Below the pieces are notes generated by a model. The model saw only the letters and a program-made list of their open reading frames with translations, ran no database searches and was not told where the DNA came from. This document shows positions 11,331 through 27,949 of a stretch of 64,000 nt of DNA, piece after piece. Location of the stretch: positions 124,001 through 188,000 of the forward strand of contig JAGRHC010000001.1 of assembly GCA_020445145.1 (NCBI GenBank), read 5' to 3'. The number at the start of each line of letters is the position of its first letter. Position 1 is the stretch's first letter. Made by a program: the position numbers and the translations under genes. Source of the DNA: Alphaproteobacteria bacterium. GTDB taxonomy: Bacteria > Pseudomonadota > Alphaproteobacteria > Micavibrionales > Micavibrionaceae.

Positions 11331-13592
11331 ATGTTAAGAATAAAGCCTTATCTTTTTGTATTTCTGCTACTGTTGTTTTTGGTGGTTACAGGGGTATCAC
11401 TGCTTTTTGTAAATGTTAATCATAATGTTGATGTTTACTTTTCACCGAGCGATCCTGTTTACAAACTCAGTCTCTCCCTCAGTGATGATTTTCCGGACGG
11501 GAAAGATTTTGTCTTTCTTTTTGAGGGGGATGACTTACTTGGTGATGCTTTCTTAGAGCGGCTTACGAAAGCCATTCAACGTTTGAAGAAAACCGATACT
11601 TTAGAGCGCGCTGTTACGCTTACGACCAGCGATCACATTCAGGGAAGCGAAGACGGGTTTACTGTTACGCCCCTTTTTGATCCCGACAAAGATTTTCTAC
11701 TTAGTTTACAGGACCGCAAAGCCAAAATATTTAGTGACCGCTTTGCGCCGGGGACACTTATTTCCAAAGATGCAAAGGCTGTCGCACTGCTTTTGCGTCC
11801 TATAAAGAATTCTGATACTGCGGCTTATACATCGCTTCGAAAAGATGCGTTTGAAATTCTTGAGCAGGAAAATCTTATGCCTTACTTCTCCGGCATATCG
11901 GGCACAGCGGAGATGAACTATACCCAGTTAGAATCTATGTTTAGTACGCAAAAGATTTTTATTCCGCTGATTTTTATCATCAATATTGCCTTGATTATGT
12001 GGATGTTTCCTCGCCTGCTGGTGTTTATTATTTTTCCTATTCTTCTTGGGATTGCAACACAGACACCAACATTTTTCCTTGTCTTGAGCGGTCAGGATTT
12101 TACCATGATCCATACTATGGCGCCGTCCCTTATGTCCGCGTTGTGTGTCGCGCTTCTTATTCATTATTTTAATCGTATCAAATATTTTTCACATTTGGGT
12201 ATACCGTCCTCTATTAGAGCCTACAGAGCACGTGATGAAATCATAAAGCCTGCCGCTTTTGCAGCCCTGACGACAGCAGCAGGCCTTGCATCACTTGCCA
12301 TTGCGCCGCTGCCTCCTATACAAAGTTTTGGCTTAACGTCTGCAGCTGGCATTGGGGTGCTATTTTTTGTGATCATGTATCTTTTGCCCCCCATTATGGC
12401 GAAATGGGATCCTGACAAACCGTGGGTTCGTGGCCTGAATATCGATATGTTCATGGCGGGGACCGCTCTTTCCTGTTCTAAATTTGCCGTTAGAAACAGC
12501 CGTAATGTTTTGATCGTTACCAGTCTGATCATGATATGCGGCGCCCCGTTTTTACTTAAGGTTAAGGCGGAAACGAATGTCTTCTCTTTTTATGGCGAAA
12601 ATCATAGGATTAATCGCGATACGAGGAAAATTGAGCAAAAACTTGTGGGGGTGACCTCATTTGATATCCTTCTGACCGGTCAGGGGTTGGACTCCCTTAA
12701 GACGCCGGAAGCTCTTTCTTATATGATTCAATTACAGAAGTGGCTCGATCAGCAGGACGATATTGATTTCACAATGTCCTACGCCCAGATGGTTGAACAG
12801 ATGAACGAGGCATTTCATAGCGGCAACCCTCAATTCAGAGCCATACCCCACAACCCTGAGTTGATCAGCCAGTATTTATTTATTACCGACTCGACTGATC
12901 TTTACGACTTTGTCAACCGCGACTTTGACAAGGCGCGCATCCGGGTTAATTTCAGTCTTCACTCGGCTGAGGAAATTAATATTTTGGCGGAACATATCAA
13001 GTCTCACCTTAGAGAACTCCCTCCCCCAGCGGATGTTACAGCCGAGGTCACTGGTTTTGGGACTTTGTATGTTAATCTGGCTCATCTTGTTGTTAAAACG
13101 CAGGTTCTTAGTTTGTTTTATGCTCTCCTTATGATCTTTTTCTTTATGGTTCTTATCTTCAGGTCTATCAGGGATGGCTTTCTTTGCATGTTTCCAAATA
13201 TTGCCCCGGTTTTGATAATTTTTATTCTGATGGGCGTTTCAGGGGTTTGGCTTGACATGGGCACAGCCATGATTGCAAGTGTGGGTGTTGGTATTGCAGT
13301 TGATGACACGATTCATCTTTTCAATGCTTACCGTCGACGGCTAAATCAAGGAAATGGGCAGGTGTATTCCCTTATGCGTGCATATCAACATGAGGGGAAA
13401 TCCGTTATGGCGACTACTTTTGTACTGGTTTCTCAGTTTATGGTACTGGGGCTATCCGACTTTGCTCCGATTATATATTTCGGGCTTTTGAGCGCTGTCG
13501 GCGTTACAAGCGCCCTTGTTTTTGATTTGCTCGTATTACCCGCGCTTGTGATTGCGACAGGAAAACCAGCCAAGCCTAAAGGGAGGACATAA
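11331..13592 (+). CDS. RND-superfamily MMPL/HpnN-like exporter
   Basis: A 753-residue inner-membrane transporter made of two repeats: membrane segment near residues 5-25, a periplasmic loop of about 170 residues, five membrane segments (about 205-345), then the same pattern again (one at about 385, loop to about 590, five to 745). The second half holds the GVGIAVDDTIHLF motif with the proton-relay aspartates typical of MMPL proteins; the equivalent place in the first half reads ALCVALLIHYF and lacks acidic residues. Families of this size move lipids, hopanoids or lipid-like products rather than drugs. Its 3' end converges on the acyltransferase gene 24 bases away, and the LolA-like and barrel genes nearby are frequent partners of such exporters. 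Confidence 0.85.
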   Translation: MLRIKPYLFVFLLLLFLVVTGVSLLFVNVNHNVDVYFSPSDPVYKLSLSLSDDFPDGKDFVFLFEGDDLLGDAFLERLTKAIQRLKKTDTLERAVTLTTSDHIQGSEDGFTVTPLFDPDKDFLLSLQDRKAKIFSDRFAPGTLISKDAKAVALLLRPIKNSDTAAYTSLRKDAFEILEQENLMPYFSGISGTAEMNYTQLESMFSTQKIFIPLIFIINIALIMWMFPRLLVFIIFPILLGIATQTPTFFLVLSGQDFTMIHTMAPSLMSALCVALLIHYFNRIKYFSHLGIPSSIRAYRARDEIIKPAAFAALTTAAGLASLAIAPLPPIQSFGLTSAAGIGVLFFVIMYLLPPIMAKWDPDKPWVRGLNIDMFMAGTALSCSKFAVRNSRNVLIVTSLIMICGAPFLLKVKAETNVFSFYGENHRINRDTRKIEQKLVGVTSFDILLTGQGLDSLKTPEALSYMIQLQKWLDQQDDIDFTMSYAQMVEQMNEAFHSGNPQFRAIPHNPELISQYLFITDSTDLYDFVNRDFDKARIRVNFSLHSAEEINILAEHIKSHLRELPPPADVTAEVTGFGTLYVNLAHLVVKTQVLSLFYALLMIFFFMVLIFRSIRDGFLCMFPNIAPVLIIFILMGVSGVWLDMGTAMIASVGVGIAVDDTIHLFNAYRRRLNQGNGQVYSLMRAYQHEGKSVMATTFVLVSQFMVLGLSDFAPIIYFGLLSAVGVTSALVFDLLVLPALVIATGKPAKPKGRT

Positions 13593-13616
13593 CTTCTCCC
13601 TCCCCAATAGGCTTGG

Positions 13617-14483
13617 CTAATTTATGCGGAAACAACTTGAAGACTGTTTTTCGTATATCTCAAGAGCACGGTAATGATTCTTGCCCTCAACGGTGACGAT
13701 TTGCCATGGATCCTGATATGCATTCATACTTTTGTCGAATGTTTCCAAAATATTGCAAATAAATGGTACGCGCTTGCCGTGATATTCCATTTCAGGCCCA
13801 ATCTCCTCGTAGACCAGTCCGGTTTGTACAAGTCGTGAAATATTGACGGCTTCCATTACACCAAAAATATTCAGGATTTCATGTTTCATGGCTAGCTCAA
13901 ACGCCCCGCGGATCAGTCCTAGTGGTGCAAGAGCTAACACAATATTCAAGAACGGCTTTTCATAGAAATGAATTTTTGTGTCAAGTGGGGTGCCTCCCGG
14001 TCCGGCGCGCATATGCTTTTTCATGATCAGGCGGCGCTCACTTGAAATGCAGAGTCTTGAAAATTCACAGGCATTCTTAACGTAGGTATAATCGTGTAAG
14101 TAATGAGAATCGCATATTCCTTGAAGCGGGAAAGATTTTTGCCAGTTTCCTTCATCATGGCGAATGACACGCACTGTTCCAATCGCCAAATCTAGGGGTT
14201 TATACATAAGTAGAGCATGTTCTGCCCTTTTGTCATACGGATCACTTTCCAGACCATCCGGATGGCTCTCCGGGTTCTCGTAATGATCGTGCTCATTACA
14301 AAAAACCTGATATCGGATGCGGTGCGCCTCATCTTTCAGCTCTTTTGTATCGGCGTGAACCACGTCGAATAATTTGTAGAACAAATTGTATATTAGTTTT
14401 CTTTGTTTGCTACTGGATATGTCATCCAAGCAAAGGAGCGGCTGATAGCGCCCGTACTCTAACGCAGTCTCAATTGAACTCAT
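13617..14483 (-). CDS. PEP-CTERM/exosortase-associated GNAT-like acyltransferase
   Basis: The 288-residue protein closely fits the exosortase-system-associated acyltransferase family, relatives of LuxI autoinducer synthases: ADTKELKDEAHRIRYQVFC near residues 44-62, then NPESHPDGLESDPYDKRAEH and GTVRVIRHDE, and later CEFSRLCIS. The family is found beside exosortase genes, but no exosortase and no PEP-CTERM tail is seen in this window. The enzyme is expected to acylate a small substrate from acyl-ACP or acyl-CoA. It lies 190 bases downstream of the E1-nitroreductase gene on the same strand and convergent with the MMPL exporter. An AGAGGG ribosome site precedes the ATG. Confidence 0.82.
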   Translation of the reverse strand: MSSIETALEYGRYQPLLCLDDISSSKQRKLIYNLFYKLFDVVHADTKELKDEAHRIRYQVFCNEHDHYENPESHPDGLESDPYDKRAEHALLMYKPLDLAIGTVRVIRHDEGNWQKSFPLQGICDSHYLHDYTYVKNACEFSRLCISSERRLIMKKHMRAGPGGTPLDTKIHFYEKPFLNIVLALAPLGLIRGAFELAMKHEILNIFGVMEAVNISRLVQTGLVYEEIGPEMEYHGKRVPFICNILETFDKSMNAYQDPWQIVTVEGKNHYRALEIYEKQSSSCFRIN

Positions 14484-14606
14484 ATTACCCTCTACTAGCC
14501 TACGCAGTATTTATTTTTTTATTTATATTTTTGTAAGTCTGTAATTTAGTTATCGTTATGCTGATTATGCAATAAAAAAATGAAATTTTCGTTACAGACA
14601 ATGCCT

Positions 14607-14632
14607 ATAATTTTATTCTAATATAAAATTAT
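14607..14632. terminator. AT-rich inverted repeat, possible weak terminator
   Basis: ATAATTTTAT pairs exactly with ATAAAATTAT across six bases, in the 190-base gap between the E1-nitroreductase gene and the acyltransferase gene. It is AT-only, so termination would be weak; it could equally be a protein site. Confidence 0.35.
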
Positions 14633-14673
14633 GGAAAAAGTAAAACTTATTATGGCTGCACTTGTTTCTCGGG

Positions 14674-16647
14674 CTATTTGTGTGCGCTATAATCACTAAC
14701 GATTATATCTTTCAAATCCTTACGGACTGACCTTGGTCTATTTTTCTTTACAGGGATCCCTACTCTACCGGAAAAGAAGACTTCATTAAATGCTATGTTA
14801 TGGGGGGAAATTATGTCTTCGACAAAAGTTTTATGCACGCCCAGTCCTTTTTCCAATAGCCGCGAATTCTCTGTAAACTTTATATCGTTTTTGATATAGG
14901 ACGCGATCATCAGGGGAATGTACCATGGCTGCATACTGATGTTATGCTTCGTCATTGTCAGCCAAAATCTCTGAAGATTTCTGCCTGCACGAATGTAGTC
15001 CTCGACTGACGGGGACTCTTTTTTCAGTCCGTCGAAATGCATAATGAAATGTCCGGATGAGCATAGCGCCGGTATTAAATCCAATTCAATTTGAAAAGGG
15101 AGCGTCGCTCCTGGGAGCTTTAAAAACATGTCATTTCTGTTTTTATTGGCTAAGGCCCATTTCATTAAACGCTCCGCCAGCGGATTTATTCCCAGCGAGG
15201 CAGACGGCATTTTATCTTTGCTATCTTTTCCGGACCAATCAATCATATTTTGGTGAATTTCGAAGGTCTCTTTTAGGCGAACCCTGATATCTGTTGTCTT
15301 CATCAGAAGTTTTGCAACCTGCTGGCGCTCTGCAAAACTCTCGAGCCAAACGATTTTAATATCGGGATCGAGTACTTTTTCTGCGGCCTCTTTAAGGGAT
15401 TCCGGCAACGGACAAATTTTGTAGCGAAACCGATTCACAGAACGACTTTTTATATAAGGCAAGAGTAACGATTTAGCAGAACCACTTACTTTTTCGAGTT
15501 TTGCTTCTAGGAGATTGCCCTTAATTTTGTATTTGAGTTCATAGGATTTTTCTCTTGCTGCTATTGCGGCTGTTTCAAGGAAAATACCTATGGTCAAAAG
15601 ATCGGGCATATCCATCAGATTGTAGACATTTTTTTTATGCGCGCTCAGGTCCAGAGTGAATGTGTCTTCTGCAGTAATTGAAATCTTCCACGGCTGCTCG
15701 TTATCACCGCTTGGGGCCCATCTGGCTTCATTTAATATCCATTCAATATCTCTTTTATATTGATGGGGCTGATCGAATGTTTCTTTTGGTTTTTCGATCA
15801 TATGGTGGACAATTTTAATTTTGAGTTTGTTTATAGGGTTCGCATTGCCCCATAGATTATAAATTTTACGATAGCGATTCTGATACATATCGAACTGGAT
15901 AGCCCATGGCGCTGCATAAGTTTTTCCGCGCCCTAAAAGAATTTTCATTGCTTCTGCGGCGGCAACGGCTGAGCAGGCGTAGCAGGCCGGCGATAACGAT
16001 GATCCTTTTTGCTGACTAAAATCTACGTAGCGCAAATCGACAAAATGAGATTTTTGTGCCAATGACGGCGTAAGGCCTACGAGGAATTGCAGCGCTTTTT
16101 CGTACTGGCTTTTCCCTTCCAATCGAAAATATTCTTCGAAAGACATACCTGCCGGATCAAAAATGAGGCAGGCGGTAGAGAGACCAATCGGACCGGCCGT
16201 TATGGCCGGGATACCTTTTTGCCTGCATTTCGCAAAGAGCTTTTCCCGAATATCCAGCACAAAGAAATCAAGACCATCGACATAGATATCTACGCCGTCC
16301 AAAAAGGCGTCCATGTTCTCCTCAGTCACTCCAGATGGAAATATTGTGATTTCACTTTCGGGATTAATTAACGATGCCTGCTTTTGCATTGTTTCGGCTT
16401 TTTCTTTGCCGATTGTCTCAAAATTTGCGCCGGCCTGACGGTTGAAGTTGGCCTGCTCAAACGTATCCATATCTGCGATATGAAATCTTTGTATGCCCAT
16501 ACGGGTTAAGGCAATGAGATGCGATCCGCCAACACCGCCCATTCCTGCTATTGCTATTTTTTTATTACGCAGAATTTCCTGTTCGGTTTGCGTCAGAAGT
16601 CCAAGATTGCGACTGAAGGCATCTTCGTAGTGAAATTTTTTGCTCAA
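14674..16647 (-). CDS. E1/ThiF-like adenylyltransferase fused to nitroreductase-like domain
   Basis: 657 residues in two parts. Residues ~1-260 are a ThiF/E1 Rossmann domain: GMGGVGGSHLIAL nucleotide loop, the NFNRQAG arginine motif, GKEKAE lysine and VDGLDFF aspartate. Only one CxxC (PACYACS) is seen, so the usual four-cysteine zinc site is reduced. Residues ~290-600 resemble a nitroreductase: ILNEARWAPSGDNEQPWKI is the FMN-side signature. The same fusion is known from mycobacterial Rv1355c-type proteins, whose reaction is not established. Start is TTG with GGAG upstream, 12 bases after the barrel gene, so it shares that operon. Likely activates a carboxylate or peptide end by adenylation and then oxidises or reduces the product; inference. 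Confidence 0.82.
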   Translation of the reverse strand: MSKKFHYEDAFSRNLGLLTQTEQEILRNKKIAIAGMGGVGGSHLIALTRMGIQRFHIADMDTFEQANFNRQAGANFETIGKEKAETMQKQASLINPESEITIFPSGVTEENMDAFLDGVDIYVDGLDFFVLDIREKLFAKCRQKGIPAITAGPIGLSTACLIFDPAGMSFEEYFRLEGKSQYEKALQFLVGLTPSLAQKSHFVDLRYVDFSQQKGSSLSPACYACSAVAAAEAMKILLGRGKTYAAPWAIQFDMYQNRYRKIYNLWGNANPINKLKIKIVHHMIEKPKETFDQPHQYKRDIEWILNEARWAPSGDNEQPWKISITAEDTFTLDLSAHKKNVYNLMDMPDLLTIGIFLETAAIAAREKSYELKYKIKGNLLEAKLEKVSGSAKSLLLPYIKSRSVNRFRYKICPLPESLKEAAEKVLDPDIKIVWLESFAERQQVAKLLMKTTDIRVRLKETFEIHQNMIDWSGKDSKDKMPSASLGINPLAERLMKWALANKNRNDMFLKLPGATLPFQIELDLIPALCSSGHFIMHFDGLKKESPSVEDYIRAGRNLQRFWLTMTKHNISMQPWYIPLMIASYIKNDIKFTENSRLLEKGLGVHKTFVEDIISPHNIAFNEVFFSGRVGIPVKKNRPRSVRKDLKDIIVSDYSAHK

Positions 16648-16659
16648 ATTTTTCTCCGA

Positions 16660-18285
16660 TTAGAACTGGTACCGCCAGCCTGCTGTAATCAATGAGTTGT
16701 TGCGATAATAGTCCCCAAAAGTCTGAGGTGCGCCATCGAAATAATGGCCTTCGAGGTAAATCTCGTGGGCATCAAATCCTTTGTAGGTAATGCCTGGATT
16801 TATATATAGATCATATTCATCAAGGCCGATCGTAAAATCGATGTTTGCTACCCATTTCCCCTGAAAGAATGTGTCTTCAATGCTTCCGCCTAATGAATAT
16901 GTATCTGTGCGGTCAAGAACATCGTGGGCTCCCGGCATGATCTGCGCCATGCCTTGCAGGATAACGCGCAGTTCGTCATCTCCGGGATAGAACTCTCCTC
17001 CAGCTACAAAAATGTAAGCATCTTCAGAGCCTTTTGAATAATCACTCTTATAGACCGGCATGTCGCTCAGCCATGCACCTTCTGCGCGTAAGACGGCACT
17101 GCCAACCGGAACCGCAACATCGCCACCGACGACCCACATCCAGGGGTATCGCGCTGTGACTGTATCCCCGGTTGACGTTGCCATTGCGACAGGCAGCGAT
17201 ACACCGTTTTTGACCGCGTCCGTAATCTCAGGGTTTACTTCATAGTATGGTATTGTGCGGCGCGCTCTTTGGACGGTTAAGGCATAATCGGCTGATCCGC
17301 CGGTTTTGCTTGCTCTAATACCTCCACCGCCAATACCGCTATCATCTTTGCCAAATGTCGCATTTGATATAATTTGGTTCAGGGCTGGATTCTCTGCTAA
17401 TCCCGCTATGCGGCCCCGGTGCGGATCAACTATACCCCACATGCTTTCCCGGTTTGCAACTTCACTCTCCCTCAGGTCGAAGACGAATAGGCCGTCAAGT
17501 TTGTAGTCCCCGGTGTAATACTCTCCCCGGACTGCCGGGACTGCACGGCGCGTGTCTTCGTAATCACGAATAAATGCTTCCCGTAAATCAAGAGATCCAA
17601 GCTGGTCGGTTGGCTTCATGCCGTCGACTCGGCCCCATATTACTTTTTGTGACCCAAGTGTTAGTGCATATTTTTCGCCTGTGTGGCGCAGATATATTTC
17701 GTTGTAACGTACAGCGCCCATATCATAGTCGCGCGTACCGTATTCGCCGTGGTAATCCAGATCATAAGATAGTTTTGCATCCCATCCCTTGCCGATCCAC
17801 CATTTTACTTCAGGTGTAAAGCGCTCTGTTGTCGTTGACGTTACGCCAGGACTGTTCCCGACGACGTAACCTGCCTGTGCTTCGATCTTTCCGGAAAACT
17901 CCAATTGTTCTGATGATTTGGATTCCTGTGTTGTGGTTTGTGCCGACATATTGGCGACAGGTTCTTCTTCTGCACTGCCGAAGGTAAAGCTTTCAGTCTG
18001 CTGAACTGCCTCGCTCTCAGCATGCTCTTCTTTATCCCCCGCCTCTCCTGCGCCGGGCTGCAGAGCCGGTAAATTGACATTATGAGCTGGGTGAAAATAA
18101 GTTTGAGCAGGCTTTTCTCCGGGCAACGCCACGCCTGTATCGAGGTTATAAATTATTTTTGTGCGCGTGCCAGAATTGCCACTGATCACAGGAGCCGATT
18201 GAATTTTGTTTTCCTCAGCGTGAGCAGAATTACAGACGCCGAGCCCCATCATGACAGTTGAAAGTAAAAAGAAAGAGGTACGCAC
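16660..18285 (-). CDS. Outer-membrane beta-barrel protein, DUF1302-like
   Basis: 541 residues beginning with a signal peptide cleaved after NSAHA. Residues ~25-130 are a low-complexity, Glu/Gln/Ser/Thr-rich linker; from ~135 on alternating strands (WWIGKGWDAKLSYDLDYHG, YALTLGSQKVIWGR) and a terminal aromatic (WRYQF) mark a barrel. The GSQKVIWGRVDG and SLDLREAF motifs are like those of DUF1302-type porins that occur beside MMPL exporters and LolA-like proteins. Start is GTG with AGGAG five bases upstream; the LolA-like gene ends 20 bases before it. Probably the outer-membrane exit or acceptor of the exported product. Confidence 0.78.
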   Translation of the reverse strand: MRTSFFLLSTVMMGLGVCNSAHAEENKIQSAPVISGNSGTRTKIIYNLDTGVALPGEKPAQTYFHPAHNVNLPALQPGAGEAGDKEEHAESEAVQQTESFTFGSAEEEPVANMSAQTTTQESKSSEQLEFSGKIEAQAGYVVGNSPGVTSTTTERFTPEVKWWIGKGWDAKLSYDLDYHGEYGTRDYDMGAVRYNEIYLRHTGEKYALTLGSQKVIWGRVDGMKPTDQLGSLDLREAFIRDYEDTRRAVPAVRGEYYTGDYKLDGLFVFDLRESEVANRESMWGIVDPHRGRIAGLAENPALNQIISNATFGKDDSGIGGGGIRASKTGGSADYALTVQRARRTIPYYEVNPEITDAVKNGVSLPVAMATSTGDTVTARYPWMWVVGGDVAVPVGSAVLRAEGAWLSDMPVYKSDYSKGSEDAYIFVAGGEFYPGDDELRVILQGMAQIMPGAHDVLDRTDTYSLGGSIEDTFFQGKWVANIDFTIGLDEYDLYINPGITYKGFDAHEIYLEGHYFDGAPQTFGDYYRNNSLITAGWRYQF

Positions 18286-18305
18286 AGGGACTCCTATTAA
18301 ATTTA

Positions 18306-19133
18306 TCAGGGGCGGTAGGTTTTTTCACGGGATGGGTCTTGCAGGAAAGAATCCGAAAACAGCTCGTTTGGAATCTGCTTATCGTAGATTATGTTTTCGC
18401 TTTTTATTCTGGTTGTGTGATTTGCTTTATAGTCCTTGATAACAGTTTCCATGACAGTCCAGAACCCGTCAATTTTCTCAATCTTTTTGACATTCAGGGT
18501 TTTTATGGGCGCATCCGCATTGTCTCGATAGAAATCTACGCGGATGGGGATGAGTGTTTGCGGGTGAACCCACACAACACGCTTAGAATAAGATGAGTTT
18601 TTGGGATCGACGGGGATGCTTTCTATGACATCGCAGAGGGCGCCCTCGAGTTTTTCCTGCCTTAGAAATTTATGGCTGTCTTTATTCACTTTGCGATCCT
18701 GGAGATCTTCATAATAGATATCGGAATCTACGAAACGCCCGCCCTTGCGATCTGCGGCAATACGGCGAATACGTTTCAGGGCCGGCAGATATATCCATTG
18801 ATCATCTTCACCACTAGCGTGGCTTTGGGTAAGAAGACCTGTATCTGCGACATCCGCAGGCAACGTAAAGCGGATAAGTGACGCCTTTTCTCCCCCGCCA
18901 TTGTCGGTGCTGTAGGCATAAAACTGACGCGTCCGCGACTTACCTGTGCCCTCCAGGACCATCGTTGTCAGTGCAATCATTGTTTTGCCTGTTGGACGAT
19001 CGTAAACGGCTTGCGCTATTTGCCTGCCTTTGTCGCCATCTTCCGCATAGAGTTTTTGTGCAAATACGGCGCTCGAAAATACCAGCATCAGAACACCGCA
19101 CATCAACAAATTTAAATTACGCATGAGCATCAT
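18306..19133 (-). CDS. LolA-like outer-membrane lipoprotein-sorting protein
   Basis: A 275-residue periplasmic protein with signal peptide (cleavage after SSAVFA). The core resembles the LolA-like family that pairs with RND/MMPL exporters: SRTRQFYAYS, DQWIYLPALKRIRRIAAD, RFVDSDIYYEDL and the late MLI/TLIPIRVDFY and YKANHTTRI segments. The concave half-barrel of such proteins carries a lipid tail across the periplasm. It is first in the minus-strand operon LolA-like, barrel, E1-nitroreductase. Two ATGs (19133 and 19124) are possible starts. The substrate is unknown; it is not the general LolA, which lacks this motif set. Confidence 0.8.
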   Translation of the reverse strand: MMLMRNLNLLMCGVLMLVFSSAVFAQKLYAEDGDKGRQIAQAVYDRPTGKTMIALTTMVLEGTGKSRTRQFYAYSTDNGGGEKASLIRFTLPADVADTGLLTQSHASGEDDQWIYLPALKRIRRIAADRKGGRFVDSDIYYEDLQDRKVNKDSHKFLRQEKLEGALCDVIESIPVDPKNSSYSKRVVWVHPQTLIPIRVDFYRDNADAPIKTLNVKKIEKIDGFWTVMETVIKDYKANHTTRIKSENIIYDKQIPNELFSDSFLQDPSREKTYRP

Positions 19134-19234: not shown

Positions 19235-20134
19235 TTATCGGCCAAGTAAATTGTCCAATGCCTTTGAAACTCCGTCTTTCCAACTTCCTTGGGAAACACC
19301 AAAAACATCTTTGATTTTTTTACATGATAGAGCCGAATATGCAGGCCTCTGGGCAGCCGTAGGGTATTCCTGTGATGTGATCGGTACTATTTCGTGGGGC
19401 GTTTTCAAACCTCGCCTTTTCAGTTCATCCATAATATACAATGCCAGATCATACCAGCTTGCAACCGGTGAATCCGCATAGTGATATGTTCCCCAGCCGT
19501 TAAAGTTATTCTGTTCTGCTTGTACGGCTATCGCTTTTATTGTAGCGGAGAGGTTTCCGGCATAGGTTGGCGTTCCGATCTGATCACTTACAATTTTTAA
19601 TGTGTTTTTTTGTTCAGCCAAAGACACCATAGTTTTTAAAAAGTTCCGGCCATACGCACTGAAAAGCCAACTTGTTCGTAATATGATGTGGTGCGGCGCA
19701 TATTTTCGTACTGCCTGCTCACCTGCTTCTTTGGATGTACCGTAAACACTTATTGGATTTACCTTATCCTCTTCGGTGTAAGGCGCATTTTTTTTGCCAT
19801 TGAAAACATAGTCGGTTGATATATGTATTATTGGCATTTCCAGTTCTGCTGCAATCTTTGCTATATTTCCTGCGCCCTCTCCGTTCACTTTCTGAGCCTC
19901 CTCGGGATACTCTTCCGCTTTATCCACATTTGTCCACGCAGCAGCGTTTATAACAACTCTGCAAGAGTTGTCTTCTTTGAGGCTCACCAATCTACTTCTT
20001 ATTTTATGCGGACACGTTATGTCGCATTGTTCCCTGCTCAAAGGAAATAAATTAAGACTGTTTTTTTCTTGTTGTGCCATCGCTTTCATCGAATGACCCA
20101 ATTGGCCGTTAGCCCCTAGTATAATTATGTTCAT
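19235..20134 (-). CDS. rmlD: dTDP-4-dehydrorhamnose reductase
   Basis: Last step of dTDP-L-rhamnose synthesis, NAD(P)H-dependent reduction of the 4-keto group. The N-terminal GANGQLG nucleotide motif, ISTDYVFNG, and the catalytic YGTSK (Tyr-x3-Lys) in NPISVYGTSKEAGEQ are all present; ILRTSWLFS follows. The 299-residue length from the ATG at 20134 is standard; this start overlaps the stop of the hexapeptide-transferase gene by four bases, and an upstream ATG at 20203 would add 23 non-conserved residues. It ends the sugar operon; no rmlB is found in the window. Confidence 0.94.
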   Translation of the reverse strand: MNIIILGANGQLGHSMKAMAQQEKNSLNLFPLSREQCDITCPHKIRSRLVSLKEDNSCRVVINAAAWTNVDKAEEYPEEAQKVNGEGAGNIAKIAAELEMPIIHISTDYVFNGKKNAPYTEEDKVNPISVYGTSKEAGEQAVRKYAPHHIILRTSWLFSAYGRNFLKTMVSLAEQKNTLKIVSDQIGTPTYAGNLSATIKAIAVQAEQNNFNGWGTYHYADSPVASWYDLALYIMDELKRRGLKTPHEIVPITSQEYPTAAQRPAYSALSCKKIKDVFGVSQGSWKDGVSKALDNLLGR

Positions 20135-20826
20135 GGACAACCCGAGCTTGTTTGAGTTTGCCCCCCCCTCTTCCCGACCATGCGCGCAGGCGTTCCGACC
20201 CATATCTCATTTTCTCCGACAACCGTCCCTTTTGTTATAAGCGCTTGAGCTCCAATGATAGCGCCGTCTTTGATTTGCGCACCGGCCATGATCATGCTTT
20301 GCGCCCGGATGGTTACGTTGTTTCCTATTTCAATTGGATAAAATGCCAGCCTATCTCCTTCGATAACATGAGGGACAACCAATGCCTGCAGCCCAACAAT
20401 AGAATTTTTTCCCATTTTAACGAAAGCTGGGTCCGTTAAAACGCCAGATGGAAATGAATTTTTACCAATTTGAGCTCCTAAAAGAACATATAGCACTTTT
20501 CTTAGCGGGATTGGGACTAGCGACGTTTCAATGAGTGGGTTGAAAATAAATAGAAAAAAAAGAGTGTGTACGAAATAAGTGAACTCCGTGTGTGTTCTCT
20601 GCTCTATTTCGCCGAAAGGTAATGGCCTCATCCCGATAAGAACTCTTTGCGCCAAAATCATATAGAAGACGAAGCAGATTAAAAAGCTTGCGATCATGGC
20701 AATTTCTCGAAAACTGTCTAGCGGCAGTGTTCTTAGAGCAAACCAGACCGTTACGCCGGCGAACAATATTGCAAAACTATATATGCACGCGAACAGAGCG
20801 ATGGCTGGCAACGTCATTTTATGCAT
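20131..20826 (-). CDS. Membrane-anchored hexapeptide-repeat (LbH) transferase
   Basis: The N-terminal ~110 residues hold two or three membrane segments (AIALFACIYSFAILFAGVTV; MIASFLICFVFYMIL). The C-terminal ~110 residues show left-handed beta-helix hexapeptides: VLLGAQIGKNS, FVKMGKNSIVG, IEIGNNVTIRAQS, GAQIKDGAIIGAQAL, ending with the usual IWVGTPARMVG. Such enzymes acetylate or acylate sugars. Start at 20826 overlaps the glycosyltransferase stop; 20817 is an alternative. Coupling with rmlD and the glycosyltransferase puts it in glycan or glycolipid decoration. The exact donor and acceptor are unknown. Confidence 0.8.
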   Translation of the reverse strand: MHKMTLPAIALFACIYSFAILFAGVTVWFALRTLPLDSFREIAMIASFLICFVFYMILAQRVLIGMRPLPFGEIEQRTHTEFTYFVHTLFFLFIFNPLIETSLVPIPLRKVLYVLLGAQIGKNSFPSGVLTDPAFVKMGKNSIVGLQALVVPHVIEGDRLAFYPIEIGNNVTIRAQSMIMAGAQIKDGAIIGAQALITKGTVVGENEIWVGTPARMVGKRGGQTQTSSGCP

Positions 20827-22051
20827 TTTTTTTGCTATCCTGACAGGGCCCCAGAACCCATGAGAGCCAATCATCAAGACTTTCCTTCATGTTGATCTGT
20901 GCCATGGCATTTTTTTGCCGGAGAGCCTCTTGCCTGTATGACTGATCGGCTAGCATTTCATCAATATTTTTTGTTACTGCTCTTGCGTTCACACGATCAC
21001 TGCGCAGTGTGCGGACGGCGCCTGTTTGTTCCAGATGTGCGCTGCACAAATATTGATCCATATTATGAGGTATGCCTAGTGCGGGGACACCTGCTGCCAA
21101 GGCGAGGTAGCTGCTTATACCACCGTTCCCTATGAAAAGCGTACAGTTTTGCAGAGCCTCTTTTAATGGCAAGAAATCCGTCACAAAGATATTGGATGTG
21201 GTCTCAATGTTTAATTGATTTCCTGCGGTGATCACTACGCAGTTTTCTTTTCGGCCCAGAAGGCTTTTGATTACAGAAGTGAAAATCTCCGGTTTTCCCG
21301 ATGACCCAATACAAATGAGAATTAACGGCTGGTCTGAGGAAATGTTTGGCCACCACTCAGGGAAAGGCTGCCTCAAAGACCAATTTATCGGGCCAATATG
21401 CTTTTCTGTTCTATGCGGACACTTTGAATGATTATATGATAAAGGATCATCGTATAGTATGTAGTCGCCCTGTAAATATAGATTTTCAATATTCTCAAAA
21501 TTTATTGGAATATTGTATTTTTGGGCAACTATATTTATGGGATCACAGAACTCCTTGAAAACTTTTGGCGATAATCTATCAAATATTGCTTGTGCCACCC
21601 TGATTGGAATAAATGATGTGAAAGGTGCGAGATCAGGCACTATATATTTCTTTCCCTCTTCTTTTTTCCAGTAAATGCTCGAGAGATTACAGTAAGGCAC
21701 ATTTGCTATTTTTGAGCTGATTGCCAACGAGAGTCTAAAATCTCCTATGATGAGATCAGGCTTAAAGCTTTCGATAGCGTCTAGTTCACTCTTGACATAT
21801 TTCTCGATTGTTTCCGCATTGTAGGCAGGCTTGCCCCTTGTAACGCTATCGATAAATGACTTCCCGTCTATTGTTTCGATATCATAGTTTTTTGCAAAGC
21901 AAGCCGGGACCATGTGCGAGACTTTCGACGATACGGCAATTCCACATTCATATTTTTCAGGATCCAAAATTTCAGCCAAAGCGAAACATCGCCCCGGATG
22001 TGAAAGCGTAATGTATTCTGCTACAAAAAGAATTCTCTTTTTTAAAGTCAT
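20819..22051 (-). CDS. Glycosyltransferase, GT1 (UGT/MGT)-like
   Basis: A 410-residue GT-B protein. The N-terminus ILFVAEYITLSHPGRCFALAE is the acceptor-side Rossmann start; the C-terminal donor-binding part has CTLFIGNGGISSYLALAAGVPALGIP, equivalent to the HGG..S..EAL..G.P signature of UGT-like enzymes (His replaced by Asn), and then NMDQYLCSAHLEQTGA. Such enzymes often move dTDP- or UDP-sugars onto lipids or small molecules, which suits the neighbouring rmlA, rmlC and rmlD. It begins one base after the rmlA stop codon, so it is in the same operon. Confidence 0.8.
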   Translation of the reverse strand: MTLKKRILFVAEYITLSHPGRCFALAEILDPEKYECGIAVSSKVSHMVPACFAKNYDIETIDGKSFIDSVTRGKPAYNAETIEKYVKSELDAIESFKPDLIIGDFRLSLAISSKIANVPYCNLSSIYWKKEEGKKYIVPDLAPFTSFIPIRVAQAIFDRLSPKVFKEFCDPINIVAQKYNIPINFENIENLYLQGDYILYDDPLSYNHSKCPHRTEKHIGPINWSLRQPFPEWWPNISSDQPLILICIGSSGKPEIFTSVIKSLLGRKENCVVITAGNQLNIETTSNIFVTDFLPLKEALQNCTLFIGNGGISSYLALAAGVPALGIPHNMDQYLCSAHLEQTGAVRTLRSDRVNARAVTKNIDEMLADQSYRQEALRQKNAMAQINMKESLDDWLSWVLGPCQDSKKNA

Positions 22052-22052
22052 A

Positions 22053-22964
22053 TTATTTCAATTCGTTGAACCCTGATGGTGAATAATAGTTTTCTCTTAC
22101 AATTTTTTTCAAATATTTTCCGTAGTCGTTCCCTTTATAGAGATCCGACATACTCAAAACCTCTTCAGCGGATATCCATTTTTTATAGAAAGCGACCTCT
22201 TCCGGGCAAGCTATTGCTGTTGACTGGTGGGTTTGTATGGAGTGCACCATTTGGGAGGCTTCGAGCATTGTCCGATGTATGCCGGCATCAAACCAACAGC
22301 ACCCTCGCCCCATAAGCTCCACATGTAACTCGTTTGCTTTGAGGTATTGGTTGAGAATATCAACTATCTCAAGTTCGCCACGCGCCGAAGGCCTCAATGT
22401 CTTTGCATATGAAGGTACATTTTCATCAAAGAAATAAAGACCGGTTACCGCCCAGTTTGATTTTGGATTCTGAGGTTTCTCTTCAATGGAATGTATTTTT
22501 TTCTCTCTATCAAATTCGACTATTCCGTATCGGTTGGGATCGCTTACCTGATGCGCGAATACTGTGGCTCCGTGTGTTCTATTCGACGCTTTTTGCAAGT
22601 GGTCGCCGAACTTGTGAGCATAGAATATGTTGTCGCCAAGTATCATTGCACAAGGCGAGCCATTCAGAAACTTCTCTCCAATTGTGAAGGCCTGCGGCAA
22701 GCCCTCGGGATTGGCTTGTACTTCATAATTCAACGAAATCCCCCATTGCGCTCCATCCCCCAGAAGTTGCTGAAAGAGATGTTGTTCGTGCGTGGTTGTA
22801 ATGATCAAAATATCCTGAATATCTGCCAGCATAAGCGTTGTCAGAGGATAGTAAATCATCGGCTTATCGTAGATTGGCAATAATTGCTTGCTGATGCTTT
22901 TGGTCGCAGGGTAAAGACGTGTGCCGCTACCTCCTGCCAAAATGATGCCTTTGCGATGTTTCAT
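22053..22964 (-). CDS. rmlA: Glucose-1-phosphate thymidylyltransferase
   Basis: Makes dTDP-glucose from dTTP and glucose-1-phosphate, the entry to dTDP-deoxysugars. Signature GIILAGGSGTRLYPAT at the start, YDKPMIYYPL, ALGDN-equivalent ILGDNIFYAH and the EEKPQNPKSNWAVTGLYF segment are all intact. Length 303 residues is normal. It lies in the operon between rmlC and the glycosyltransferase. A ribosome site GAGGAATT precedes the ATG. Confidence 0.96.
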   Translation of the reverse strand: MKHRKGIILAGGSGTRLYPATKSISKQLLPIYDKPMIYYPLTTLMLADIQDILIITTTHEQHLFQQLLGDGAQWGISLNYEVQANPEGLPQAFTIGEKFLNGSPCAMILGDNIFYAHKFGDHLQKASNRTHGATVFAHQVSDPNRYGIVEFDREKKIHSIEEKPQNPKSNWAVTGLYFFDENVPSYAKTLRPSARGELEIVDILNQYLKANELHVELMGRGCCWFDAGIHRTMLEASQMVHSIQTHQSTAIACPEEVAFYKKWISAEEVLSMSDLYKGNDYGKYLKKIVRENYYSPSGFNELK

Positions 22965-22987
22965 ATAAAATTCCTCAGTCCTGACTT

Positions 22988-23569
22988 TTATATTTCCGGG
23001 GTGGTAAAAGGGGTTTTAAAATCTTCCCAAGACGGCAGCGTTTTATCTTTTTCCGAGAGGGTTACCGTTTCACTTTTTACCGGCCACTCAATTCCGAGAT
23101 CGGGGTCGTTCCATAAAATGCCGCCATCATGTTCTTTTGAATAAGGTGCGTCGACCTTATAGATAACTTCTGTATTTTCCTCGAGAGTGCAGAATCCATG
23201 GGCAAAGCCCGCTGGGACGAGGACCTGCTTTCGGTTTTTACCGCTTAGTTCTATTGCCCCACTTCTTCCATATGTTTTCGAGTTTTTGCGGATATCTACA
23301 ATTACATCGAGAGCGGAGCCTACAATCACGCGCACCAGCTTAGCTTGTGCGAAAGGAGGTGCCTGGAAATGCAAGCCGCGGAGCGTTCCTTTGGGAATGG
23401 AAAGAGAATGGTTATCCTGTATAAAATTGTAGTGCAGGCCTGCCTCTTCCAGTGTTTGTTTCTTGTAGCTTTCGGAAAAATAGCCACGATCATCTTCGAA
23501 TTTTGCAGGCGTGATAAGATAAACATCTGCAAACGGCGCCATTTTTTCTATATGTAATTGTCTATTCAT
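22988..23569 (-). CDS. rmlC: dTDP-4-dehydrorhamnose 3,5-epimerase
   Basis: Cupin-fold epimerase acting on dTDP-4-keto-6-deoxyglucose. The catalytic-histidine segment LRGLHFQAPP, the VDIRKNSKTYG stretch, the FAHGFCTLEENTEVIYK motif and the final YSKEHDGGILWNDPDLGIEWP are typical. The 193-residue length is standard. The ATG overlaps the stop of the upstream SDR gene by four bases. Its substrate needs RmlB, which must be encoded elsewhere. Confidence 0.95.
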   Translation of the reverse strand: MNRQLHIEKMAPFADVYLITPAKFEDDRGYFSESYKKQTLEEAGLHYNFIQDNHSLSIPKGTLRGLHFQAPPFAQAKLVRVIVGSALDVIVDIRKNSKTYGRSGAIELSGKNRKQVLVPAGFAHGFCTLEENTEVIYKVDAPYSKEHDGGILWNDPDLGIEWPVKSETVTLSEKDKTLPSWEDFKTPFTTPEI

Positions 23570-24501
23570 TTTTTATGTCCGTATGATTGGTTTTTTAATA
23601 CGAGTAAAGTTGCAATGATTTCACGGAAATATACTTCAATGTCTTGCCCTTCATACTGAGTAGGGTCACAAGACTTAAAATCCATGATAATTTCACTTAA
23701 TATGTCTTTTGAATTTTCTGGCATTTCAACCAAGCATTTTTCTTGTGTCACTTCCGAGTAGGCGGTAGCGCACATCAACGCCACATCGTATATTGTAGAA
23801 TCACAAGACCCTATCGGGTTTTTTACAGTCAGGCCCTTTGCGTTCTTGCTCAAAAGAAAATTGGCAACATGTTTTCCAATGGCAGCAGTGCTGATAAAAT
23901 TGCGCCTAATTTTATTACTTCCAGGTAAAAGCCGTATTTTTCTGTCTTCGACAGCCAGACGGGGAAACTTATAAGGCACAAGTCCCCACCTAGAAAAAGA
24001 CATTAATTTTTGAGGCATTCCATAAACTGATGATGGCCTTAAAATGATTGCACACGCTTCATTTTCAGCTTTTGTGATTATCCGTGTTAAAATGCGTTCT
24101 GTGGCATAATGGGAGATTGCATAATCAGAAACCGGATTGCATGGTGTTAGTTCTGTTATTGTGCCTGACAGTGATCCGTATACATGCGCGCTTGAGATAT
24201 AGACGAATTTTCTTATACCTGCATCAAAGGCTGATTCAAAAAGCTTTTTGGATGCGTATGTTCCTTTCAAATAGGCCTTGCATGCAGATTCTAAAAAATC
24301 CTCATCTCTGACCCCGGCGCAATGAATTAGAGCCTCATGGCCCTGAAATAAGCTGACCGATATATCCTGCGGACGATCTATATCAAGCATTTTATCATTG
24401 TGCTCTCCCTTACCAAATTTTGTAATTTGATGGGATGCACTTATTTCATTTAATATCGCCGAGCCAATTACTCCGCTGGAACCTAAAAAAGCTATTCTCA
24501 T
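23566..24501 (-). CDS. NAD-dependent epimerase/dehydratase-like SDR with altered catalytic Lys
   Basis: An extended SDR of 311 residues. The nucleotide loop GSSGVIGSAI and KFVYISSAHVYG are present and RPSSVYG follows, so the fold is secure. The catalytic motif, however, reads DYAISHYATE where the family has YxxxK: the lysine is replaced by histidine. It therefore may have lost or changed activity, and is not simply RmlB. Its start overlaps the stop of the sigma-54 activator by four bases and its stop overlaps the rmlC start. It could finish a deoxysugar or act as a binding protein. Function unassigned. Confidence 0.78.
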   Translation of the reverse strand: MRIAFLGSSGVIGSAILNEISASHQITKFGKGEHNDKMLDIDRPQDISVSLFQGHEALIHCAGVRDEDFLESACKAYLKGTYASKKLFESAFDAGIRKFVYISSAHVYGSLSGTITELTPCNPVSDYAISHYATERILTRIITKAENEACAIILRPSSVYGMPQKLMSFSRWGLVPYKFPRLAVEDRKIRLLPGSNKIRRNFISTAAIGKHVANFLLSKNAKGLTVKNPIGSCDSTIYDVALMCATAYSEVTQEKCLVEMPENSKDILSEIIMDFKSCDPTQYEGQDIEVYFREIIATLLVLKNQSYGHKK

Positions 24502-25922
24502 TGCTCTCTATTTTTCTTATCTTGTTCAAGTTTTTTGTAGAGGGTTGATTTTGCTATCCCCATGGCACTTGAAGCCCGCGTTATATTACCCTGATAATAT
24601 TTAAGAATATATTGAATTGCCTCCAATTCAATTTCACGAGATGTTTTAAAGTTTCCATCAGGTTTCATCAAATTTATGGCGTGATTTGCGGTCAGATTGA
24701 TGCCGGACGGCGCTTCGATCTCTAATGTTTTTTGACGGTCAGTGGCGAGGATATCTGAAAAGTCTTCCGGCTCGAGGATAGCTCCTTCGCTCATGACGAG
24801 GGCACGACCTATGGCATTCTCAAGCTGGCGGACGTTTCCGGGCCAGATGTAATTGACGAGTTCTTTCATCGTCTCATTTGATAGCGGTTTAGCGATGTGA
24901 TTGGTTTTGGCACTGAACCGCTCAATAAAATGCATAATCAGCGGAACGATATCTTTTTTTCGCTCACGCAGCGGCGGCATTTCGGCCTGTAAGACGTTGA
25001 GACGGAATAATAAATCTTCGCGGAAGCGGCCTGCCCTTACTTCTTCTTCCATATTTCGGTTGGTGGCTGAAATGATGCGGACATCGACAGGTACCGGACG
25101 CCCTGCCCCAACGGGCTCTACTTCCTTTTGCTGCAAGACGCGCAAAAGTTTGACTTGTGCGTCGAGGGGAAGCTCGCCGACTTCATCCAGAAAGATTGTT
25201 CCCCCGTGTGCCTCGCGGAATTTTCCAAGAACTTTTGAGGTTGCACCTGTAAAGGCGCCCTTTTCATGACCGAACAGCGTACTTTCGACCAATTGTGGCG
25301 GGATAGCACCGCAGTTTACGGCAATGAATGGTTTTCCGGCGCGCTGTGATTCTCCATGGACAGCTTTGGCAAAAACTTCTTTCCCCGTCCCGGTTTCTCC
25401 TGTGATGAGGACAGGAAGGTCCGAGGATGCGGCTTTGCGCCCGAAACGCACGACGGAAGCCAGCCCTGTTTCTGCGCCGATGAGTTGATGGAAGCCCAGC
25501 TTTCCTTCCTGTTCGCCGCTCAGTCTTTTGACTTCTTTGCGGAGCATATTGAGACTTAGCGCGTTTCGAACGGTCAGGACCAGCCTTTCATGCTCGAAAG
25601 GTTTGGTCAGGAAATCGACGGCTCCGCGTTGTATGGCCTTGATTGCGTCGTTTATATCTTTACTGCCTGTCAGCATAATGACCGGGAGGCCCGGATATTT
25701 CTGGCTCAGAATTTCCAGCGTTTCCATTCCGCTCATGACAGGCATGGCAAGGTCCATGATAACCAGCCGGATATTCGAGAGCGTGTCTTTGTCGAGTATC
25801 GACAAAGCTTCGCGCCCGTTGCCGGCGACGATTGCCTCATATTGCAATTTGCGGTGGATGAGCGTGGCCAGCATATGGCACTGGAGTTCGTCGTCTTCCA
25901 CGATCAGGATTGTTTCTTGCAT
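24498..25922 (-). CDS. NtrC-family sigma-54 response regulator
   Basis: 474 residues in three parts: REC domain (acceptor Asp in VIMDLAMPVMSG, about residue 56; Lys in LTKPFEHE), AAA+ sigma-54 activation domain with Walker A GETGTGKE and the sigma-54 contact loop GAFTGA, Walker B GGTIFLDEVGEL, and the arginine-finger FREDLLFRLNVL; then a Fis-type helix-turn-helix ending in ASSAMGIAKSTLYKKLEQ. It needs a partner kinase; none is adjacent on its strand, but the hybrid kinase at 27950 lies across a divergent 250-base gap. It is the first gene of the sugar operon and may control itself and the sigma-54 promoter at 26095. Confidence 0.93.
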   Translation of the reverse strand: MQETILIVEDDELQCHMLATLIHRKLQYEAIVAGNGREALSILDKDTLSNIRLVIMDLAMPVMSGMETLEILSQKYPGLPVIMLTGSKDINDAIKAIQRGAVDFLTKPFEHERLVLTVRNALSLNMLRKEVKRLSGEQEGKLGFHQLIGAETGLASVVRFGRKAASSDLPVLITGETGTGKEVFAKAVHGESQRAGKPFIAVNCGAIPPQLVESTLFGHEKGAFTGATSKVLGKFREAHGGTIFLDEVGELPLDAQVKLLRVLQQKEVEPVGAGRPVPVDVRIISATNRNMEEEVRAGRFREDLLFRLNVLQAEMPPLRERKKDIVPLIMHFIERFSAKTNHIAKPLSNETMKELVNYIWPGNVRQLENAIGRALVMSEGAILEPEDFSDILATDRQKTLEIEAPSGINLTANHAINLMKPDGNFKTSREIELEAIQYILKYYQGNITRASSAMGIAKSTLYKKLEQDKKNREQ

Positions 25923-26094: not shown

Positions 26095-26110
26095 TGGCAC
26101 GAGTGTTGCA
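26095..26110 (+). promoter_or_regulatory. Sigma-54 (-24/-12) promoter
   Basis: TGGCAC, five bases, then TTGCA: an exact match to the RpoN consensus with the required GG-to-GC spacing of ten. It points at the response-regulator gene starting 63 bases downstream. The NtrC-type activator gene is divergent on the other side of the gap, which fits local control. Confidence 0.88.
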
Positions 26111-26172: not shown

Positions 26173-27078
26173 ATGCTGGTATTTGTTAAAGATGCGGAAG
26201 AAACCCTACTCCGGGACCTGAAGAAACACCGGGACCTGTTTCCGACCCATCGATGCCTGTACCTCAAGTTTTCGCAACTGAATGAAGAAAAAGAAGAATG
26301 GTTTTCGGCCCTTATAGAGATAATCAGGGACCGCGGCCAAGATGATTTGAACCAGATTTACGTGTGTCACGATAACGATGTTTTTATCCTCTCACGCGGT
26401 ATGACTCACAAGAGCCTTGAACAGTTTTTAGCCCACCTAGCCCCCAAACTTACGCCAGCTCCCTTACCGGAGCTGGCGGTTCTTTTTGAAATCGGTGTGG
26501 ACTGGGCCAGACTTGGATTAATTTGCGAGCGTAAGATTGAGGCGAAGATTGAAGCCTTGAAAGCTCTTCAAGCGCAAGAGAGCTCAGATGAAGAAATGCT
26601 GGCGCGGAAGGAAGCTCTTCTTAAGTTGAATCGTGAGATGGCTGCAAGCTTACCGGATCGACGTGAAAAACGAAAAGAACCAGAAATTTTGATTGTCGAG
26701 GATGATCCTTTTACGCAGCGACTTGTGGGGAATGCACTGAAAGATAAATATCCCTTTAGCGTGACCGGCAGCGGCCAAAATGCGATCTCGGAATATTTAA
26801 GCAAGGCGCCTGATATTTTATTTCTTGATATCGGGCTGCCGGATATGAGCGGGCACTCTGTCTTGCAGCGGATCTTCCAAATTGACCCGCAGGCCTATGT
26901 TGTCATGTTCAGCGGCAACGGAGACCGCGAGAATGTCCTTCGTGCGATTGATCAAGGCGCCAAGGGATTTGTTGGCAAACCGTTTACGCAAGAAAAGCTG
27001 TTCCAGTATATCGAAAAATCGCCTTTCATTCAGACCAAGCTCAAGAAGGAGACCCTCCATGGATATTCTCAATCTTAA
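26173..27078 (+). CDS. Response regulator with novel N-terminal domain (copy 1)
   Basis: 301 residues. A C-terminal REC domain starts near residue 172 (ILIVEDDPFTQRL; acceptor Asp in ILFLDIGLPDMSG; Lys in VGKPFTQ). The N-terminal ~125 residues are an unassigned domain shared with the next gene; a linker helix rich in Glu/Lys/Leu (residues ~120-160) joins them. The stretch IYVCHDNDVFILSRG sits where a GGDEF-type cyclase would have its GGDEF strand-turn, so a degenerate nucleotide-cyclase fold is possible, but no active-site residues remain. It is the first gene after the sigma-54 promoter and overlaps copy 2 by 20 bases. Confidence 0.85.
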   Translation: MLVFVKDAEETLLRDLKKHRDLFPTHRCLYLKFSQLNEEKEEWFSALIEIIRDRGQDDLNQIYVCHDNDVFILSRGMTHKSLEQFLAHLAPKLTPAPLPELAVLFEIGVDWARLGLICERKIEAKIEALKALQAQESSDEEMLARKEALLKLNREMAASLPDRREKRKEPEILIVEDDPFTQRLVGNALKDKYPFSVTGSGQNAISEYLSKAPDILFLDIGLPDMSGHSVLQRIFQIDPQAYVVMFSGNGDRENVLRAIDQGAKGFVGKPFTQEKLFQYIEKSPFIQTKLKKETLHGYSQS

Positions 27079-27913: not shown

Positions 27914-27949
27914 AATTTCCATCACTTTGCCTGCTTTGGGAGGGCGTTG

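Follow-up and report, generated by a model that had tools for sequence, protein, structure and literature searches.

Gene content of the locus

The DNA analysed here is a stretch of 64,000 nucleotides from an alphaproteobacterial assembly (GCA_020445145.1, contig JAGRHC010000001.1, positions 124,001 to 188,000), which is designated the window in the following. It contains a group of five adjoining genes, which probably encode a lipid pathway of the acyl-oxazolone type together with its own export route through the cell envelope. The five genes are, in window coordinates:

11331-13592, plus strand: MMPL/HAE3-like exporter of the resistance-nodulation-division (RND) type, 753 aa (PF03176, E = 3.7e-35)
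13617-14483, minus strand: N-acyl amino acid synthase-like GNAT acyltransferase of the TIGR03694 type, with a putative OxzA-like role, 288 aa
14674-16647, minus strand: E1/ThiF cyclase fused to a nitroreductase-type flavin oxidase (E1-NTR; OxzB/TrzS-like), 657 aa
16660-18285, minus strand: outer-membrane beta-barrel of the DUF1302 type, 541 aa
18306-19133, minus strand: LolA-like lipid carrier, periplasmic, with an N-terminus resembling a signal peptide, 275 aa (PF17131, E = 1.3e-59)

These open reading frames (ORFs) are the ones that had been singled out in a first-pass annotation made from the sequence alone. Its family assignments were reproduced as well: matches to MMPL (PF03176), LolA_like (PF17131), ThiF (PF00899), TIGR03694 and an Acg-type oxidoreductase were detected, and the barrel was assigned by means of the DUF1302 matches of its homologues. 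According to the ORF coordinates, 20 bp separate the LolA-like gene from the barrel gene and 12 bp separate the latter from the gene for E1-NTR, which agrees with the proposed tight operon of three genes with two others beside it. The acyltransferase gene follows 190 bp downstream of E1-NTR on the same strand. The MMPL gene lies on the opposite strand and is convergent with the acyltransferase gene; the ends of the two genes are 24 bp apart.

The core enzymes probably correspond to those of acyl-oxazolone synthesis

The acyltransferase reaches 156 bits with TIGR03694 (exosort_acyl), the curated cut-off of which is 111.95. Among the Pfam families it matches Acetyltransf_5 (E = 1.2e-11) and, weakly, FeeM (E = 3.6e-05); a sequence search of the PDB with this protein gave no match.

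Residues 12-261 of E1-NTR match ThiF (PF00899, E = 1.9e-40), and the C-terminal part from approximately residue 300 onwards resembles FMN oxidoreductases/nitroreductases of the Rv3131/Acg type (E = 7e-20). The protein scores 395 bits with PRK08223 (cut-off 266) and matches PRK14851 and PRK14852 over nearly its full length. In a comparison of the predicted model with known structures, TM-scores of 0.80 for the ThiF fold and 0.73 for Acg (2ymv) were obtained, both on the target, and 2ymv, which served as template for TrzS, was also matched by a profile search. Among solved E1 enzymes, TcdA has the most similar sequence; it prepares the carboxylate of an amino acid for ring closure by activating it. 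A search of PHROGs yielded only families of unknown function, which match the ThiF part, and no relatives were found in the viral contigs searched.

The adenylation motif of E1-NTR is intact, with GxGGVGG, D61, R70, K83, D127 and R134 all being invariant in 26 fused homologues. The same holds for R13, N67 and Q71 and, on the oxidase side, for S313, G314, D315, N316, Q318 and W320. The E1 domain contains a single CxxC, compared with the two CxxC zinc pairs of MoeB-like enzymes, a difference that argues against a carrier-activating enzyme of this kind. In one relative (locus L026), the CxxC is missing at the equivalent position of the alignment.

An acyltransferase, a ThiF cyclase and a nitroreductase-type flavin oxidase together constitute the acyl-oxazolone pathway, which is represented by OxzAB, TyzABC and TrzAS; OxzB and TrzS are ThiF-oxidase fusions, as stated in PMC10404671 and PMC12856293. 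The first-pass annotation had assumed that no product has been characterised for the gene combination of the window. This statement fails for the core, since the trio is shared with the oxz/tyz/trz systems and is that of the acyl-oxazolone/N-acyl-dehydrotyrosine pathway (PMC10404671, PMC12856293, PMC12479983). OxzAB from Pseudoalteromonas rubra, which is also proteobacterial, consists like the window core of a separate N-acyltransferase and a ThiF-nitroreductase fusion; unlike in the window, export or sugar genes are not described for it in these two papers (PMC10404671, PMC12856293). The mycobacterial systems TrzAS (Rv1356c-Rv1355c) and TyzABC likewise combine acyltransferase, ThiF and flavin oxidase, and TrzS is the same fusion (PMC12856293, PMC10404671). 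They differ from the window in that neither LolA nor an outer-membrane barrel is reported for them, and the acyltransferase of the window belongs to another subfamily (TIGR03694). In the producers of N-acyl dehydrotyrosine, the N-acyl amino acid synthase, ThiF and nitroreductase genes have an operon-like order, as in the window, but the three are separate and the export trio is absent (PMC12479983).

With the family of Rv1355c (TrzS), to which it is homologous, E1-NTR scores 124 bits, far under the family cut-off of 476. For TrzS, the ATP-site residue Asp217 and the FMN-site residues Arg540 and Gln651 have been shown to be important; D127 and Q573 of E1-NTR presumably correspond to Asp217 and Gln651, respectively. 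The presumed FMN site of E1-NTR includes N316, R402/R406 and Q573.

The acyltransferase and E1 genes are paired across genomes

The pairing of the core genes was determined in a phylum sample of 349 genomes, in which matches to PRK08223 and TIGR03694 above the respective cut-off were counted as E1 and acyltransferase. Of these genomes, 12 contain E1, 24 contain the acyltransferase and 11 contain both (Fisher p = 1.4e-13); in each of the 11 the two genes are at most 5 kb apart. The first-pass annotation had regarded the grouping as accidental in case genomes with the acyltransferase rarely have the E1 fusion or the exporter trio; E1 is present in 11 of the 24 genomes with the acyltransferase, compared with 1 of the 325 genomes without it. 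Taken together with the enrichment of LolA-like genes given below, this co-occurrence argues that the grouping is not due to chance.

For a second sample, E1 loci were taken from 80 named records. An N-acyl amino acid synthase occurs in 63 of these loci, and in 49 its distance from E1 is at most 300 bp. It is either of the TIGR03694 type or, in many betaproteobacteria, of a FeeM-like type that is linked to the former via PRK14852. The nitroreductase was detected in 62 loci, and the E1-NTR fusion in 35. In 21 of the 80 loci, synthase and nitroreductase were the only ones found among the families sought. On a plasmid of Nitratidesulfovibrio vulgaris (L024, 9074-11998), FeeM, ThiF and nitroreductase are even joined in one protein of 974 aa. 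The corresponding gene is located between an XrtA/PEP-CTERM exopolysaccharide (EPS) operon and genes for PEP-CTERM proteins, and is followed by genes for a sigma54 regulator and an ABC transporter.

Within the family of the window, the distribution of E1-NTR is patchy: strong matches were obtained in 3 of 36 other genomes (G002, G014 and G033), and their neighbours differ. Gain and loss would produce such a pattern, as would horizontal transfer. In G002, genes for HlyD, an FtsX permease and an ATPase lie between acyltransferase and E1. In G033 (L027, 4947-10956), tldD/pmbA-type genes lie between one gene for E1 and another for the nitroreductase, and an acyltransferase of the Acetyltransf_5/FeeM type adjoins E1.

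Export genes recur beside the core

The LolA-like protein scores 201 bits with PF17131 (cut-off 30) and 31 bits with DUF1329 (cut-off 23), and has solved relatives (9tp6, 3bk5, 4z48). The barrel protein itself is not matched by any Pfam family; DUF1302 is matched by 6 of 13 aligned homologues. Its AlphaFold model shows strands from approximately residue 127 onwards, mostly with pLDDT >80, and low confidence for residues 1-123. The best VIA alignments of the model are those with OprD/Occ, AlgE and MOMP barrels (Z about 20-23). Foldseek returned 16-stranded porins, which rank below the better VIA matches OprD, AlgE and MOMP; neither result indicates the function. The MMPL protein is closest to HAE3 pumps, although the 120 bits reached with TIGR00921 are below the cut-off of 352. 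Sequence searches of the PDB with the barrel profile and with MMPL gave no match. AclA (9egb) was among the top Foldseek matches obtained for the locus.

A precedent for this set of proteins is AmeABCD, the monoterpene efflux system of Castellaniella defragrans, in which a DUF1302 protein, a LolA/DUF1329 protein and an HAE3 RND pump are encoded in one cassette (PMC6394551). AmeABCD differs in that it contains AmeC (COG4447), serves monoterpene use and is not tied to lipid synthesis genes (PMC6394551). In the window, the LolA-barrel-E1-NTR run leaves no room for AmeC, and the neighbouring genes scanned with Pfam belong to other families.

A LolA-like carrier also recalls LolCDE-LolA, the system of lipoprotein sorting, and LolCE-type permeases occur beside this carrier in some related loci. 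The window differs from this system in that PF17131 is not the classical LolA, a barrel stands in place of LolB, the pump is of the MMPL type, and a small lipid is the likely cargo.

Export genes were counted in those 54 E1 loci that are longer than 16 kb. LolA, barrel and MMPL genes were each found in 19 of them, and a LolCE-type permease in 11. For 50 loci a comparison with the genome background was made: 19 have a LolA-like gene in the same ~20 kb as E1, compared with 0.44 expected from the 75 LolA_like copies of the 50 genomes. This is an approximately 40-fold enrichment over genome density (P ~7e-28 if the rows are independent, which is not fully the case, as several Halioglobus-like loci are included, for example). 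LolA and barrel genes are coupled among the loci (p = 5.6e-10), and in 12 named loci all of synthase, E1, LolA, barrel and a pump are present. Mapping of the export label onto the tree of E1 requires at least 11 changes, across beta- and gammaproteobacteria and the alphaproteobacterial-type genome of the window.

All five families of the window are present in L084 and L108; the nitroreductase is a separate gene in L108 and was not found in L084. In L070, L071, L090 and L101, a LolCE-type permease is located beside the LolA-like and barrel genes near E1, and MMPL is missing. MMPL and the LolCE-type permease thus appear interchangeable in the relatives. On a 48 kb plasmid of Bdellovibrio sp. HAGR004 (L026, 8074-12852), E1 is accompanied by a weak LolA match, an ABC ATPase and a permease of the LolCE/MacB type; no acyltransferase was found within the stretch read.

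Sugar genes and a regulator upstream of the group

The run of genes on the minus strand extends upstream of the LolA-like gene by seven more genes (19235-25922), which overlap or are separated by short gaps:

19235-20203, minus strand: RmlD, dTDP-4-dehydrorhamnose reductase (TIGR01214, 307 bits, cut-off 224); likely start ~20134
20131-20877, minus strand: membrane hexapeptide (left-handed beta-helix) transferase (Hexapep, E = 4.2e-09); likely start ~20825
20819-22051, minus strand: GT1-type glycosyltransferase, EryCIII/UDPGT-like (PF06722, E = 3.5e-13)
22053-22964, minus strand: RmlA, glucose-1-phosphate thymidylyltransferase (TIGR01207, 439 bits, cut-off 361)
22988-23569, minus strand: RmlC, dTDP-4-dehydrorhamnose 3,5-epimerase (PF00908, E = 1.9e-67)
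23566-24501, minus strand: NAD-dependent epimerase/dehydratase, not clearly RmlB (PF01370, E = 2e-18; no NCBIfam equivalog cut-off reached)
24498-25922, minus strand: sigma54-dependent response regulator, first gene of the run (Response_reg and Sigma54_activat)

The likely start of RmlD overlaps the stop of the hexapeptide transferase gene, and the likely start of the latter overlaps the stop of the glycosyltransferase gene. Between the RmlD gene and the LolA-like gene there are 101 bp. The upstream genes and the LolA-barrel-E1-NTR run may form one transcript. No sigma54 promoter was found for the minus-strand run, and scans for sigma70 promoters and terminators performed no better than chance.

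A perfect sigma54 consensus, TGGCACGAGTGTTGCA, is present at 26095-26110 on the plus strand, between the sigma54 regulator gene and divergent genes. It is directed at the latter, which encode a response regulator and a hybrid kinase (26173-30874, plus strand). The identity of the sigma54 regulator with PrsR was considered and rejected, as the protein reaches 390 bits with the PEP-CTERM-box regulator family TIGR02915, which is below the cut-off of 503. A second E1 gene of the ThiF/MoeB type is found in the window away from the cluster (50445-51770, plus strand; match at 50706-51176).

Two of the upstream families recur beside the core in other genomes. The glycosyltransferase gene directly follows or overlaps E1-NTR in L049, L055, L058, L068 and L099. 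Homologues of the hexapeptide transferase occur in 9 loci, in every one of which the glycosyltransferase is present. L044 and L049 hold acyltransferase, E1-NTR, glycosyltransferase, hexapeptide transferase, barrel, LolA and MMPL all together. L049 stems from Halioglobus japonicus BC5_1, which can be cultured. The group of five genes, while not accidental, had therefore been delimited too narrowly in the first-pass annotation, which left out the recurrent glycosyltransferase and hexapeptide transferase just upstream.

Two recurrent linkages of the oxz-type core across Proteobacteria appear to be undescribed so far: one with a pump (MMPL, or a LolCE-type ABC permease in its place), a LolA-like carrier and a barrel of the DUF1302 type, the other with genes for a glycosyltransferase and a hexapeptide transferase of the membrane. 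No literature joining N-acyl amino acid synthase, LolA and MMPL was found in a search that was thin on subscription journals and is therefore weak evidence of novelty.

Proposed pathway and alternative explanations

The first-pass annotation had suggested an acylated, adenylate-activated and redox-tailored lipid or signal together with its export. A lipid of this kind with a dedicated export route is the best reading of the locus, and we consider it likely as a whole. For the family of the window, the direct evidence consists of gene content, intact catalytic motifs and statistical linkage, from which product, sugar and transport are predicted. The core chemistry can be proposed with high confidence by analogy to characterised relatives. 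The GNAT/FeeM-like acyltransferase would, as expected from its family, acylate the amino group of an amino acid with a fatty acyl chain. The ThiF domain would then adenylate the free carboxylate in an ATP-dependent step, and attack by the amide oxygen would close the oxazolone ring. Finally, the FMN-dependent nitroreductase domain would desaturate the C-alpha/C-beta bond with O2; if the ring were hydrolysed, the product would instead be an N-acyl dehydroamino acid.

Export of the product by MMPL, LolA-like protein and barrel is favoured on balance, given the conserved linkage, the precedent of AmeABCD and the position of mmpL9, which adjoins tyz in M. tuberculosis. The exporter presumably carries the product of acyltransferase and E1-NTR: the lipid would be extracted from the inner membrane by MMPL and ferried through the periplasm by the LolA-like protein, after which the barrel of the DUF1302 type would insert it into the outer membrane or release it there. 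The weakest step is a decoration of the product by the glycosyltransferase and the hexapeptide transferase, to which the dTDP-rhamnose genes are adjacent in the genome of the window. Gene linkage makes such a glycosylation conceivable, with the balance somewhat against it.

A number of observations weigh against this proposal. Neither product nor acceptor can be read from the sequence. The kinship of E1-NTR with OxzB is deduced indirectly, from domain make-up, similarity to the TrzS family and context. A relative annotated as TIGR03694 makes N-acyl-ornithine/lysine, and oxazolones were not observed in the producers of N-acyl dehydrotyrosine. Tyrazolone, as published, was detected with the cell pellets and not in supernatants. 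The MMPL gene is located on the strand opposite to the LolA-barrel-E1-NTR-acyltransferase run. The 50 loci that gave the LolA enrichment had been picked by the similarity of their E1 to that of the window and include close relatives; in the less biased sample of 349 genomes, LolA is located within 10 kb in only 2 of the 12 genomes with E1, one of which is that of the window. Loci with LolA are moreover skewed to PEP-CTERM/EPS surroundings (16 of 19, versus 19 of 35; p = 0.04), which could account for part of the LolA linkage. The 19 of the 80 E1 loci that hold homologues of the glycosyltransferase are a raw count, and the linkage of the rml genes is known from the genome of the window alone.

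A rival explanation assumes two neighbouring systems, namely an oxazolone/N-acyl-dehydroamino-acid core of E1-NTR and acyltransferase beside a separate export or assembly module, in which LolA, barrel, MMPL, glycosyltransferase, hexapeptide transferase and rml genes handle another glycolipid or a surface polymer. The bias of LolA loci towards EPS/PEP-CTERM neighbourhoods would be expected in this case, as would the many loci in which the core occurs without export genes, such as the 21 with synthase and nitroreductase only among the families sought. LolA_like is moreover found in 156 of the 349 genomes, mostly without E1, and the genes for RmlA, glycosyltransferase, hexapeptide transferase and RmlD overlap or abut each other before the gap of 101 bp that precedes LolA. 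However, the genes for LolA, barrel and E1-NTR are only 12-20 bp apart in the window, the enrichment of LolA near E1 recurs in several branches, and in the five loci named above the glycosyltransferase gene abuts or overlaps that of E1-NTR. A division into two systems is thus rather improbable, albeit the most serious competitor of an acyl-oxazolone-type pathway with its own export.

It is far less probable that the N-acyl amino acid is a component of an exosortase/EPS-type surface layer that is served by E1-NTR and the exporter, as the name of TIGR03694 might suggest. The acyltransferase does exceed the cut-off of this family, and many homologous loci adjoin XrtA/PEP-CTERM genes. In contrast, the absence of an exosortase noted in the first-pass annotation extends to the entire assembly, in which PF09721 has no match; a PEP-TPR lipoprotein above cut-off was not found in the genome of the window either, and three LolA-holding loci also lack EPS markers. 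Least probable of all, and very improbable in itself, is that the E1 domain is a conventional activating enzyme whose substrate is a ubiquitin-like protein or a sulfur carrier; the nitroreductase would then be its redox partner and the acyltransferase a bystander. Such a role is brought to mind by the closest solved relatives, which include ThiF, MoeB, TcdA and eukaryotic E1, and by M. tuberculosis TyzB, which was long annotated as MoeW. It was rejected on account of the single CxxC. The pairing with the acyltransferase, the natural three-domain fusion and the characterised fusions TrzS and OxzB, which make oxazolones, argue in the same direction.

Implications

Acyl-oxazolones have been described only recently, and their physiological role has been called a major unresolved question (PMC12856293). 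From the linkage reported here, the destination of the lipid and its final processing can be predicted, and these predictions can be tested directly in culturable bacteria. It is a tentative and rather speculative extension that the loci represent a widespread, unrecognised class of outer-membrane or secreted glycolipids with an N-acyl dehydroamino acid or an oxazolone as their core structure, which would be made by oxz-type enzymes, glycosylated and moved along a Lol-like route, in which interchangeable MMPL and LolCE pumps would supply one LolA-like carrier and one DUF1302-type barrel. Judging from the composition of the related loci, one and the same carrier may be supplied by either an MMPL or a LolCE-type pump. 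The product of the core would also be a candidate cargo for the LolA_like/DUF1302/HAE3 cassettes, which are common and mostly without a known substrate.

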